30,605 nucleotides of DNA from a virus: IMG/VR virus record IMGVR_UViG_3300041809_003448, positions 1-30,605 of that record; one strand, 5' to 3'. The position numbers were made by a program, and so were the translations under genes. Numbering within the stretch: the stretch's first letter is position 1; the number at the start of each line of letters is the position of its first letter. The notes under the pieces were generated by a model. That model searched no databases. It had not been told where the DNA came from and saw only the letters and a list, made by a program, of their open reading frames with translations. Below are positions 23,521 through 28,232 of the stretch, piece after piece.

Positions 23521-24461
23521 GACCCATGCCGATAGGAGTCTCGTAGCAGCTGTCGAATCTGTTGATCGGGCCGGCCGTCGTGCCACCCGATCAGGAGGTC
23601 CGTGATGGGCTACATGGTCAGTCGTGATGACGGCTGGCGGATGCCGGATTGGCTCTGGGAGCAGATCGAGCCGCTGCTGCCGGCGCCGCCGCCCCACCCT
23701 CTGGGCTGTCATCGCCCCCGGGTCCCCAACCGCAGCGCGATGAACGCCATCTTGTTGATCCTGCGCACCGGCATGCAGTGGAACGCCCTCGATGCGACCG
23801 GGATCTGCTCCTCGAGTTCGGCGCATCGCCGCTTTCAGGAGTGGGAACGGGCCGGCGTCTTTGCCGAGATGTGGCGTCGGGGGCTGCTTGCCTACGATGC
23901 GGCGGCCGGCATCGACTGGTCCTTCCTCTCCGCCGACGGCGCCATGACCAAGGCGCCGCTGGGCGGCGAGCAGACAGGCGCAAACCCCACCGATCGAGGC
24001 AAAAAAGGGCGAAGCGTTCGCTTCTCTGCGAGGCAAGCGGGGTACCTCTCGGGTTGGCATGCGACGGCGCCAACCGCAACGACCACAAGCTGCTGAAGGC
24101 CACCCTCGACGCGCTCCCCGTCGCCCGGCCGAAGCCGACCGCAAGCTCACCCCAGGGTCTCTGCCTCGATGCCGGCTACGACAACGCGGAGAGCCGCCGG
24201 CTCGTCGACGACTACGGCTTTACGGCCCACATCCGCAGCCGCGGCGAGGAGATCGCGGAGAAGCTGCAGACGCCCGGCTGGAAGGCGAGGCGCTGGGTGG
24301 TGGAGGCCTGCCACTCCTGGCTCAACCGCAACCGCGGCCTGCTCGTGCGCTGGTCGAAGAAGGCCGAGAACCACCTGGCCCTGCTGATGCTCGCCTGCGC
24401 CCTGATCGCCTTCAAGAAAGCACACACGGCGATGCTCACCAAGGCCCTATCGGTATAGGCT
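23520..24461 (+). mobile_element. IS5-like insertion sequence (IS427-type)
   Basis: Boundaries estimated from a terminal inverted repeat: ATGCCGATAGG at 23526-23536 matches, at 10 of 11 bases, the complement of CCTATCGGTAT at 24446-24456. Outside them the flanks are TTA on both sides, possibly the 3-base target duplication, though the left TTA includes the holin stop region. About 940 bases, one transposase read in two frames. The element sits just past the holin-like gene and directly before a pair of palindromes. Confidence 0.75.
23602..24458 (+). CDS. IS5-family transposase, two frames joined by -1 frameshift
   Basis: First frame 23602-24096 carries the N-terminal DNA-binding part (PDWLWEQIEPLLPAPPP, RSAMNAILLILRTGMQWNALD) and the first catalytic Asp (SADGAMTKAPLGG). 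Second frame, read after a -1 slip at the A6G run (24001-24007), has the rest: RAKRSLLCEASGVPLGLACDGANRNDHKLL, with the second Asp in CLDAGYDNAE and the Glu in WVVEACHSWLNRNRGLLVRW, the DDE end. The joined product is about 285 aa, the normal length for this group. Members of this IS group are known to use such A-run frameshifting. A simple disabling frameshift cannot be excluded. Confidence 0.85.
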
Positions 24462-24502
24462 CTTAAGGACTCCTTAAGTGTAAGGCTCGACGGTAGCCTT
24501 AC
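24462..24502 (+). promoter_or_regulatory. Two adjacent palindromes, probable operator
   Basis: CTTAAGGACTCCTTAAG is a perfect palindrome with 8-base arms (24462-24478). Immediately after it comes GTAAGGCT-N7-AGCCTTAC (24480-24502), a second 8-base inverted repeat. Both are AT-richer than the surroundings. They stand just upstream of a likely promoter and the early genes, where a repressor or activator of the lytic switch would be expected to bind. The left one touches the presumed IS edge. Confidence 0.6.
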
Positions 24503-24533
24503 CTCAGAAGCGCCGTTTTCGTCTGGTTTTCGC

Positions 24534-24562
24534 TTGCAGCTTATTCACGTCCTGGATAGGGT
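24534..24562 (+). promoter_or_regulatory. Probable early promoter
   Basis: TTGCAG, 17 bases, then TAGGGT. Spacing is ideal for a housekeeping sigma factor and both hexamers are reasonable in a GC-rich genome. Predicted transcription start is near 24569, about 80 bases before the first early gene (ATG 24650). No other convincing pair was seen between 24459 and 24650. Confidence 0.45.
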
Positions 24563-25538: not shown

Positions 25539-25945
25539 GGTACGACGAGGAGTACCGGCTCGCGCTTCGGCGCCATCGTCTCCGCCGCGAGACCGAGCGT
25601 CTGCTCGCGCCGCGGTTCTCGCGCCGGCTGGTCATGGAGACCAACCTGCGCCGCACACACCTCTTCTCCGACGCCGAGGTCCGCGCTCGCGTTCTCGCCG
25701 AGCTCGGTCCCGTGACCGACGAGGAGCGCGCCTTGGACGCGCGCATCGACCGTGAGCACAAGCTCACCGACCGTGCTCTCCGCGCTTCGACCGCCCGGGA
25801 GACCATGCGCTCGCTCGCCCAGCACATCGAGCGCGCCTACGGCGTTCCCTACGTCAAGGACCTCACCGACGACCAGCTCGACGCCTTCGAAGCGTGGGTC
25901 GTGCGGCGCGAGGAGCTTAAGGAGAGGAGGGAGCGTCGTGGTTGA
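25535..25945 (+). CDS. Helical protein of unknown role, early operon
   Basis: 136 aa. Very rich in Arg, Glu and Leu, with a long helical pattern (RLALRRHRLRRETERLLAPRFSRRL and RETMRSLAQHIERAYG). No catalytic motif or zinc ligands. Overlaps the ERF gene's start by 8 bases, so translation is coupled. It may bind nucleic acid or a partner protein. No family recognised. Confidence 0.7.
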   Translation: MRYDEEYRLALRRHRLRRETERLLAPRFSRRLVMETNLRRTHLFSDAEVRARVLAELGPVTDEERALDARIDREHKLTDRALRASTARETMRSLAQHIERAYGVPYVKDLTDDQLDAFEAWVVRREELKERRERRG

Positions 25946-26741
25946 CCTGCAGCGCTCTGAGCCATTCGCCGCGATCGCCGCGGCGGTCGCCGACTTTAAC
26001 AAGGCGATTCGCAACCCGGCTGCCGATCAGACGGCGCGTGTGCAGCCCAAGGACCACACTAAGCCAGCCTACACCTACCCCTACGCCGACCTCGGCGGCA
26101 TCATGGACCACGTCCGCCCGGCGCTGGCCGAGGCCGGTCTGTGGCTCTCACAACAGGTCGTGACCGACCCGGGTCATCCGGGCGATCTCGGCGCCGAGAC
26201 CTACCTGTTCCACGCATCCGGCGAGTGGCTGGGCTGGGAGCCTGTCTGGATCCCGGCCGGCGACACCGCCAAGGACGTCGGCTCGGCCATCTCCTACTCG
26301 CGCCGCTACGGCGTGCTCGCCGCGCTCGGCTTGGCCGCGCGCGAGGAGACCGACGGGCAGCAGGCTCGCCGCCAGGCGCCTCGGGCGCAAACGGTTGCTC
26401 CGAAATCCGCTCCGTCGGCGGCGCCGGCGGTTCCTGCGGCGATCGGCCAGACGCGCGCCGCGGCACTCATCGCGCTGGGCAATCGCAAGGGCAAGACCGC
26501 CGAGGACCTGCTCACCTTTGCGCAGGCGCTCGGGCTTCCGAAGGACAAGGAGCTCCGCGAGGCCACGCCGGTGCTGGGCGATCGCATTGGCCGGCGCCTC
26601 GAGGCGCTGGCCGACCGCTTCGACGAGAACGGCGTCGAGATCCCGGAGGCACCGGCGGTGCAGGAGACGCTCGGCGCGCCGTCGCCGGCTCCCGGCGACG
26701 ACACCGACCCGCCGTTCGTCGACGACGGCGACCCGTCGTGA
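25938..26741 (+). CDS. ERF-family single-strand annealing protein
   Basis: 267 aa from GTG 25938, chosen because AGGAGGG is right upstream. Recombinase that anneals complementary strands during phage recombination and repair. The ERF core is clear: FAAIAAAVADFNKAI, then YPYADLGGIMDHVRPALAEAGLWLSQQVV, GEWLGWEPVWIPAGDTAKDVGSAISYSRRYGVLAALGLAAREETDG. The C-terminal ~110 residues are a Pro/Ala linker and an acidic tail (DDTDPPFVDDGDPS), similar to the tails that contact single-strand-binding protein in other recombination proteins. A GCGCAAACGGTT motif lies in the linker. Confidence 0.88.
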   Translation: MVDLQRSEPFAAIAAAVADFNKAIRNPAADQTARVQPKDHTKPAYTYPYADLGGIMDHVRPALAEAGLWLSQQVVTDPGHPGDLGAETYLFHASGEWLGWEPVWIPAGDTAKDVGSAISYSRRYGVLAALGLAAREETDGQQARRQAPRAQTVAPKSAPSAAPAVPAAIGQTRAAALIALGNRKGKTAEDLLTFAQALGLPKDKELREATPVLGDRIGRRLEALADRFDENGVEIPEAPAVQETLGAPSPAPGDDTDPPFVDDGDPS

Positions 26742-26959
26742 TCCTCTGCTCGCTCAAGGACATGGTGACCGTCGAGGCGCGCGAGGTCCTCGACCCCTGC
26801 GGCCAGCAGCGCTGGTACAAGCGCGACGGCGACAACAAGGTCCTGCGCGTGGCATCGGTGCAACCGTGGGGACTCCGCTGGGTCAAGGTGACCGTCGAGG
26901 ACGGTCGCAGCTTCGTCCAGCCGAACACGCGCCACGTCTTCGTGCTGGGGCGGCCATGA
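26738..26959 (+). CDS. Small beta-rich protein of unknown role
   Basis: 73 aa, GTG start overlapping the ERF stop (GTGA). Pattern VTVEAREVLDPCGQQRWYKRDGDNKVLRVASVQPWGLRWVKVTVEDG looks like a compact beta barrel. No family recognised. It sits tightly between the annealing and initiator genes, so a replication accessory or nucleic-acid binding role is possible. Confidence 0.65.
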   Translation: MILCSLKDMVTVEAREVLDPCGQQRWYKRDGDNKVLRVASVQPWGLRWVKVTVEDGRSFVQPNTRHVFVLGRP

Positions 26960-27822
26960 GCGCCGCCGAGCACGTCTACTGGCGGGTCTCGCCGCGCGTC
27001 TGGGACGAGCAGTGGAGCGAGGACGCGCGCGTCCTGTGGCTCTACCTGCTCACCAACCGCCATCGCATCGCCGAGGGGCTCTACCGCCTGCCCAAGGGCT
27101 ACATCGAGTCCGACCTCGGGTGGTCCGTACAACGGTTAGCCAAACCCTTCGGGGAACTGCTCGCCGACGGTTGCGTGCGCTACGACGAAACGGCTTCGGT
27201 CGTGCTCATCGTCGGCGCGCTCGCATACCAGGCGCCCGACAACCCGAACTGCCAAAAGGCGGCGCTCCGCAAGCTCGCCGAGGTCCCGTCGACTCCGCTC
27301 CTGGCGGAGCTCGTAGCCTCGGCGGCGCGCCTCTGTCCAGCCTTCGCGGAACGGTTGCGCGAACGGTTCGCGGAACGGTTGGGCGAATGGTTGGCCTACT
27401 CTCCTTCTCCTACTCCTTCTCCTACTCCAGCTCCCGCTCCAGAAAACCTCTTGTCGGCGCCGCCGGCACCGACGTTTGCAGTCCCATTCGACGACTTCTG
27501 GTCGATCTACCCCGACCGCACGAAGGCCAAGGAGGCTCGGCGCCGCTGGGCTTCGCTTTCGAACGTGAGCCGCGCCAAGGCGGTCGCCGCCGCGGTGATC
27601 GTCGCTGAGGCAGTGAGCTGCGGGCGCGTCGAGCTGCGCTACGTGCCGGGTGGCGCCGTGTTCTTAAACGAGCGCTGGTCTGAATGGCTCGACGGCATCC
27701 CAGCTCGCTACGGGCGCCGGCGTCCGGGCTTCTCCGACTTCGAGCGCATCGCCCGCGAGGCCGAGCTCGCCGGAGAGCTCGCCGCCGGCGCCGCTCCGCT
27801 CCAGATCGGAGGTCCGCAGTGA
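26956..27822 (+). CDS. Replication initiator (HTH/DnaD-like)
   Basis: 288 aa, ATG overlapping the previous stop (ATGA). The N-terminal ~110 residues (WRVSPRVWDEQWSEDARVLWLYLLTNRHRIAEGLYRLP..) form a winged-helix-type domain like those of phage replisome organisers. A Pro/Ser/Thr linker with repeats (SPSPTPSPTPAPAP) follows. The C-terminal domain (FDDFWSIYPDRTKAKEARRRWASL) is the pattern common to phage replication proteins that recruit the host or phage helicase. The DNA of the region just before and inside the linker carries four direct repeats (see iterons), as in lambda O, where the origin lies inside the initiator gene. Confidence 0.8.
   Translation: MSAAEHVYWRVSPRVWDEQWSEDARVLWLYLLTNRHRIAEGLYRLPKGYIESDLGWSVQRLAKPFGELLADGCVRYDETASVVLIVGALAYQAPDNPNCQKAALRKLAEVPSTPLLAELVASAARLCPAFAERLRERFAERLGEWLAYSPSPTPSPTPAPAPENLLSAPPAPTFAVPFDDFWSIYPDRTKAKEARRRWASLSNVSRAKAVAAAVIVAEAVSCGRVELRYVPGGAVFLNERWSEWLDGIPARYGRRRPGFSDFERIAREAELAGELAAGAAPLQIGGPQ
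27346..27393 (+). repeat. Four tandem 12-bp iterons, putative replication origin
   Basis: Units GCGGAACGGTTG, CGCGAACGGTTC, GCGGAACGGTTG and GGCGAATGGTTG lie head to tail. All share the core GAA(C/T)GGTT. They encode a four-residue repeat inside the initiator, but with GAA and TTG codons, whereas the surrounding genes prefer GAG and CTC or CTG. This suggests the DNA, not only the protein, is under selection. A pyrimidine-rich, AT-richer stretch follows at once (27394-27450). Confidence 0.65.
27394..27450 (+). repeat. Pyrimidine-rich 12-bp repeats beside iterons
   Basis: Repeats of CCTTCTCCTACT at period 12 run through the linker codons, using third-position T, which is unusual here. Together with the iterons on the left this resembles the duplex-opening part of an origin: one strand is almost pure pyrimidine. 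The repeats can also be explained as a coded Ser/Thr/Pro linker. Confidence 0.5.
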
Positions 27823-28232
27823 CCCTTGCTACTCTCATCCGCATGCTGGGCGCAGCGAACGCCTGCTACCGCGGACGCTTTGGCTTCCAGGACTCAGAGG
27901 ACGTCGCCACCACGGCCAAGGTCTGGGGCGCCGTGCTCAAGAGCGTGGACGACGCCGACGGCGTCGCTGCCTTCCTCGAGCACTTCAGGCAGTCCGTCCA
28001 TCCCCCGACGCCAGCCGACATCATGGATGGCGCCGAGCTTGCGCGGGCGCTCGCACCGCAGCACTGCGCACGATGCGAGAAGCTCCTGTCCGCCGATGAC
28101 CTGCTGGACGGCGAGGCGCTCGACGACGGCTCGCGGCACTGCTTTGTCTGCTACGTCGAGACCCACGGCGGGCTTCCCCAGGGCGGCGCCGTGCCGCTCC
28201 TGATGCCCGCTCTCAAGGCGGTGGAGCTGTGA
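27819..28232 (+). CDS. Replicative helicase loader-like protein (G39P-like) with zinc pair
   Basis: 137 aa, GTG start with GGAGG at good distance, overlapping the initiator stop (GTGA). The N-terminal part (TLIRMLGAANACYRGRFGFQDSEDVATTAKVWGAVLKSVDDADGVAAFLEHFRQSVHPPTPADIMDG) resembles helicase loader/inhibitors such as SPP1 G39P: the FPP/HPPTPADI segment and spacing fit. The C-terminus adds two Cys pairs (CARC and CFVC). Order initiator then loader is the usual one in such replication modules, though the match to G39P is by eye. Confidence 0.65.
   Translation: MTLATLIRMLGAANACYRGRFGFQDSEDVATTAKVWGAVLKSVDDADGVAAFLEHFRQSVHPPTPADIMDGAELARALAPQHCARCEKLLSADDLLDGEALDDGSRHCFVCYVETHGGLPQGGAVPLLMPALKAVEL

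Follow-up and report, generated by a model that had tools for sequence, protein, structure and literature searches.

A candidate split replication origin within the initiator gene of a tailed phage

We found that the replication initiator gene of a tailed phage probably carries a split in-gene iteron origin of the lambda/SPP1 kind, with one iteron cluster placed in the codons of the DNA-binding domain. The DNA analysed (hereafter the window) was a 30.6-kb IMG/VR virus record encoding terminase, portal, and HK97-type head and tail genes. The initiator gene contains the whole of the candidate origin, which is divided between 27130-27173 and 27349-27393, the latter followed by a tract at 27396-27442. 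The original prediction had placed a likely origin at the downstream array and tract; this reading of the region as a candidate origin was supported and proved incomplete, since a second cluster lies in the recognition-helix codons. Repeats were present in both regions, both clusters and the tract were under selection at the DNA level, and the two clusters shared a sequence that co-varied between lineages. Furthermore, homologues other than phage initiators, and homologues that have no C-terminal part, lacked both clusters together. Binding, melting and helicase loading are the steps of this reading that we infer.

The initiator gene (26956-27822, + strand, 288 aa) is located in an early region of the window together with genes for an Erf-like single-strand annealing protein (25752-26741, + strand; PF04404, E=4.8e-16) and a RusA-like resolvase. 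The protein comprises a winged-helix N-terminal domain, a linker and a C-terminal domain that starts at an FDDFWSIYP motif (27487-27822, + strand) and showed profile matches to primosomal/initiation protein families. Residues 10-117 matched phrog_1701, 'DnaD-like helicase loader' (E=1.3e-19). AlphaFold2 predicted a winged-helix fold (codons 27019-27213, + strand) with H1 at residues 22-33, H2 at 47-54, H3 at 58-71 and the two strands of the wing at 74-77 and 82-85, with pLDDT mostly >90; the predicted recognition helix H3 is encoded at 27127-27168 (+ strand) by the rarest codons of the domain (z -5.4). The top Foldseek matches to this model were mostly winged-helix proteins, all weak and none significant, and no PDB sequence was matched significantly in a profile search. 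Pfam likewise gave no match for the initiator with E values up to 1, and hence none to the DUF1376 (PF07120) profile. The next gene (27819-28232, + strand) encodes a possible helicase loader with a weak match (phrog_2289 helicase loader, E=0.0028), and in relatives a DnaC gene adjoins the initiator.

The linker contains four head-to-tail 12-bp units with the core GAA[C/T]GGTT at 27349-27393, GAACGGTT at 27349, 27361 and 27373 and GAATGGTT at 27385. As defined by TRF and motif count, the iterons themselves, all on the + strand, are GAACGGTTG at 27349-27357, GAACGGTTC at 27361-27369, GAACGGTTG at 27373-27381 and GAATGGTTG at 27385-27393. The four units described in the original prediction were thus present, and the window has no other match to GAAYGGTT (expected number 0.57; at least four in 0/100 shuffles). 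TRF reported a period of 12/24 at 27343-27393 and of 6/12 at 27400-27442. The second of these corresponds to the pyrimidine-rich, G-poor tract (CTCCTT CTCCTA; 27396-27442, + strand; codon z -7.2), a candidate duplex-opening element that adjoins the linker iterons and had been described beforehand as AT-richer with a period of 12. This held, with a period of 6/12 and a GC content of 56% against 68% for the gene, a tract that is not AT-rich in absolute terms. Among the 40- or 60-bp segments of the window, computed stability ranked the tract third from the lowest, which makes it predictably easy to melt and a candidate melting region. Its strand asymmetry was unique, no other 50-bp stretch in the window having at least 84% pyrimidine. 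GC skew was negative almost throughout the window and had no turning point at 27.3 kb, so it was uninformative as origin evidence. In segments of 40-100 bp, the least stable duplex of the window was at 24447-24550, where one ORF ends and ahead of a reverse-strand ORF; this may be the early regulatory region.

The second cluster, three clear units and one degenerate unit at 27130-27173, occupies the codons of the predicted recognition helix and of the first part of the wing, about 219 bp from the linker cluster. Its cores are AACGGTT at 27131, AACCCTT at 27143, the degenerate GAACTGCTC at 27154 and GACGGTT at 27166, spaced by 12, 12 and 11 bp. Two upstream copies, at about 27131 and 27166, had been noted before and both were present; the cluster as then described was missing two further units. 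On the + strand, iteron 1 is CAACGGTTA (27130-27138; sequence and codon rarity). Iteron 2 is CAAACCCTTC (27141-27150), whose core AACCCTT is AAGGGTT in the opposite orientation and is conserved in two relatives (L005 and L006). The degenerate iteron 3, GAACTGCTC (27154-27162), is GAACTGTTC or GAACTGTTR in five others (L298, L303, L319, L360 and L361), and relatives have AACGGTTTC/GACGGTTTC in the column of iteron 4, CGACGGTTG (27165-27173).

We then compared codon use in the initiator with that of 14 other window genes. The genes of the window use GAG at 92%, CTC and CTG together at 86%, TTG at 3% and CGG at 20%. The initiator codons were ordinary except in two troughs, one spanning residues 45-80 (z falling to -5.4 at residues 53-68) and covering the recognition helix and wing start, the other spanning residues 121-176 (z falling to -7.2 at residues 149-164) and covering the linker array and tract. 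The unusual GAA, CGG and TTG codons had been taken to point to selection on the DNA, and the codon usage of the window genes bore this out. When codons were resampled 5000 times from window usage, at least four core motifs in the linker were never obtained (0/5000) and at least two in the HTH codons were obtained in 0.02% of resamplings. In the window alone, a blind within-gene shuffle gave no significant HTH-linker match (z 0.8) because the rare codons of the initiator sit almost only in these clusters; this null was replaced by the window-wide codon-usage null. We conclude with very high confidence that the iteron clusters are selected as DNA.

Homologues from viruses and from a genome collection were compared; in the scan of genome contigs a 3-sequence alignment found nothing and an 8-sequence alignment found relatives. 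Two close virus relatives (75-76% identity) kept both iteron clusters. Another 80 loci came from enterobacterial phages, with 69-99% identity to a Klebsiella phage protein; the Klebsiella-type DNA-binding domain is about 44% identical to that of the window. These loci carried GAAAGGGTT units with an 11-bp period in both the HTH codons and the linker. Owing to this period successive units are read in different frames, and iterons were found in all three reading frames within one gene: the enterobacterial relatives encode them as KGS-ERV-EPF in frames 0, 2 and 1, compared with ERL/ERF in frame 1 in the window. Relatives in the genome collection, among them a Bacillota bin, Halanaerobium, Phycisphaerae, Armatimonadetes and Burkholderiales, showed the pattern too (gene GC 37-68%). 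Divergent homologues, with 40-45% identity in the DNA-binding domain, kept the DNA repeat while residues and frame changed; the main refuting outcome named in the original prediction, a protein repeat kept with no conserved DNA repeat, did not occur. The tract was likewise unstable with a period of 6 in most relatives. Its sequence and strand bias varied, from pyrimidine CTCCTA in the window to purine CAGGAA in enterobacteria and AACTGT/ACCTGT in Phycisphaerae.

Synonymous codon identity was then determined in 16 diverged enterobacterial members. It reached 0.83-0.91 in the HTH codons and 0.81-0.95 in the linker iterons and tract, compared with about 0.45-0.65 in much of the remaining gene, the gene start also being high; the window and its two close relatives showed similar peaks. 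At the start of the enterobacterial gene the synonymous codons of the first 12 residues were highly conserved (0.87; L015:2941-2976 and relatives L017-L096), a sequence pattern that suggests a further DNA or RNA element there.

To quantify the sites, the core motif AANSGTT/AACSNTT was counted in 21 lineage representatives and in 500 synonymous shuffles. The 22 codons of HTH and wing contained 47 sites compared with 11.3±2.7 (shuffle maximum 19), and the linker 61 compared with 17.6±3.2 (maximum 27). Counts were near expectation in the first 56 residues (2 versus 1.5) and the C-terminal domain (9 versus 7.2), and slightly above it at residues 79-121 (10 versus 3.4±1.6, maximum 9). Since the motif was defined from sites in both regions, its enrichment is by itself circular in part, which does not apply to the shuffles, reading frames, controls or motif-free tests. 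These data also bear on a protein-level cause, in which the ERL/ERF and PT/PS repeats and conserved helix residues would produce DNA similarity that has no function as DNA. The linker units of the window do all share one frame, and the AlphaFold2 model has helices along the linker repeat. However, the motif was lost in synonymous shuffles, which leave the protein unchanged, codon-usage resampling gave P of 0.0002 or less, and relatives encode the iteron in three frames as different residues. A protein-only repeat was rejected on these grounds, and we regard such a cause as extremely improbable.

In most relatives the first units of the two clusters were 219, 221, 232, 243 or 254 bp apart, distances that often differ by steps of one unit (11-12 bp), suggesting a joint nucleoprotein structure. 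Both iteron sets were missing from homologues in integrative elements and from those without the C-terminal part, and no HTH site was found in nine sequences of SXT/R391-like-element homologues and short rhizobial homologues. The former elements were putatively assigned as SXT/R391-like by host range and the pR997 record. A homologue of about 40% identity in Vibrio, Shewanella, Proteus and other genomes (L218, L304-L305, L358, L362 and similar) has lost both clusters and the tract, indicating that the gene can persist without this origin. In five relatives (L223, L300, L302, L367 and L372) linker iterons were present and HTH copies absent.

The findings above were extended to a second family, the DUF1376 (PF07120) initiators, whose loci came from a viral-contig scan; an earlier family search in one bacterial class had given few. 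For these genes we used a motif-free test, in which the strongest DNA match of the N-terminal domain to the linker was set against within-gene synonymous shuffles. The results revealed that 29 of 54 non-redundant genes passed at p≤0.04 (about 2 expected), sharing DNA between the HTH codons and the linker. In every passing gene (29/29) the N-terminal match started at residues 37-58 of the 95-residue domain, in which the domain model places helix 2 at 41-47 and the recognition helix at 54-64; the offset kept the reading frame in 11 genes and broke it in 12, and the match was inverted in the other 6. DUF1376 proteins thus resemble the window initiator in carrying iterons in the HTH codons and the linker of a predicted winged-helix protein, but they form a separate family with other iterons, for example ATGCGAACGCAT and AACCCAGTSGGTT. 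In both families the iteron sequence differed between lineages and agreed within a gene. HTH segments matched their own linker better than other linkers (12.3 versus 9.4 in DUF1376 and 13.0 versus 11.1 in the window family), a preference that none of 5000 permutations reached in either family (P<0.0002), whereas a helix-1 control segment showed no such preference (P 0.18 and 0.38).

The co-variation also bears on whether another protein, such as a ParB-like one, might bind the array for partition or operon regulation. A ParB/RepB family gene does lie upstream of the initiator in the Klebsiella phage (L015). Nevertheless, the array tracks the initiator gene family and not ParB, no ParB-type gene was identified near the array in the window, and the sites change together with the HTH codons of the initiator itself. 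We consider an array of this type quite improbable.

When FDDFW-type initiators were examined more widely, a universal rule was not supported: 19 of 65 random genes passed and several matches lay in or near the linker itself. No iteron copy was found in the N-terminal domain of lambda O, whose four annotated iterons share nothing with the codons of that domain, or of the Burkholderia DC1 and Vibrio D160 O-like genes, and in SfV and AsXd-1 the repeats are located around the linker. Iodobacter phage phiPLPE has TGCTAGCAGAGCGCTAGC in an N-terminal helix (L479:682-699) that precedes the HTH, and a similar copy 173 bp further on, out of frame (L479:855-872); L160 and L162, related to the phiPLPE initiator, have TGCTAGCA copies too. 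In an unrelated initiator family (L145), CGTAACGCGTTACGTAACG occurs in the 'VTRYVTV' codons (gene nt 377) and again in the linker (680), possibly a further case of the split layout. The lambda-type genes without HTH copies, the phiPLPE placement and the linker-only members show that HTH placement is common in two families and not universal.

These exceptions raise the alternative that the origin consists of the linker array and tract only, as in lambda, with the HTH cluster serving separately in autoregulation, titration or handcuffing. The O-type genes that have no N-terminal copy, together with the five relatives that have linker iterons only, are consistent with it. On the other side, the integrative-element and truncated homologues have lost the HTH copies along with the linker copies, the two sets change sequence together, and their unit-stepped distances of 219-254 bp suggest one structure. 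We therefore judge a linker-only origin unlikely, while giving it real weight, and lean towards the HTH cluster being functionally part of the origin and not a separate regulatory site.

Both clusters are likely to act as initiator-binding origin elements, with binding and origin activity as the inferred part. In the split-origin model the winged-helix domain of the initiator would bind the 11-12-bp units of both clusters, the initiator-iteron complex would open the adjoining tract, and the initiator, together with a partner loader, would load the helicase of host or phage onto the exposed strand.

A few model phages are known to have origins within their initiator genes, and such origins are hard to find because their repeats hide in coding sequence. 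They lie in lambda gene O (PMC6022878, PMC7466680), SPP1 gene 38 (oriL; PMC6316719) and P1 repL (oriL; PMC9948254). Like the window, the lambda ori (L474) has four iterons and an easily melted neighbour inside the initiator gene, between the DNA-binding domain and the C-terminal part (PMC6022878, PMC7466680). The lambda iterons, however, are 18-19-bp inverted repeats about 20-24 bp apart and the opening region is AT-rich, whereas the window has 9-bp imperfect palindromes 11-12 bp apart and a pyrimidine-rich tract. A lambda ori proper, with such inverted-repeat iterons confined to the linker, was rejected in view of the 11-12-bp units and the cluster in the HTH codons. SPP1 oriL also has direct repeats in the initiator gene and an unwinding element, and its initiator works with a helicase loader, but its second site, oriR, is about 13 kb away and the second cluster of the window about 0.2 kb away in the same gene (PMC6316719). 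P1 oriL likewise lies inside the initiator gene; this was shown by synonymous substitutions in an AT-rich region of repL, which is the published determinant, and the abstract describes no cluster in HTH codons (PMC9948254). Iteron plasmid origins resemble the window in having iterons beside an opening region of ordered short repeats, but theirs are AT-rich 13-mers and the window has a hexamer-period tract inside coding sequence (PMC4081077). Repeated DUE elements in these plasmids are bound as single strands by Rep (PMC4081077), by analogy a possible precedent for the tract. Judged against the open-access literature, what differs from known in-gene origins is the second cluster, in DNA-binding-domain codons about 0.2 kb upstream.

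We tentatively suggest, at somewhat below even chances, that the DNA-reading helix of the initiator binds its own codons, a self-referential code. With reader and site in the same bases, a change in the iteron would also change the recognition helix, and whenever recombination transferred the DNA-binding domain its origin would go with it. If true, such a code would keep initiator and origin matched while specificity diverges, and how the two can change specificity without losing each other would become directly testable. The HTH codons may have been used because the protein varies between lineages there and can absorb DNA constraints, or because a linkage that stays matched through recombination is favoured. 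As two families co-vary, a phiPLPE-like third type uses the preceding helix and lambda-type genes have none, this solution would be widespread and not universal. Matched iterons in HTH codons and linker could offer a sequence-only route to locating origins, and to predicting initiator specificity, in uncharacterised phages and prophages.

We also observed that the Klebsiella phage initiator (L015) and four others (L224, L231, L249 and L298) have near-identical or related DNA-binding domains, iterons and tracts and different C-terminal domains, and that the C-terminal domain of the former recurs in SfV and other O proteins. From these sequences, the N-terminal part plus the origin looks like an exchangeable cassette.
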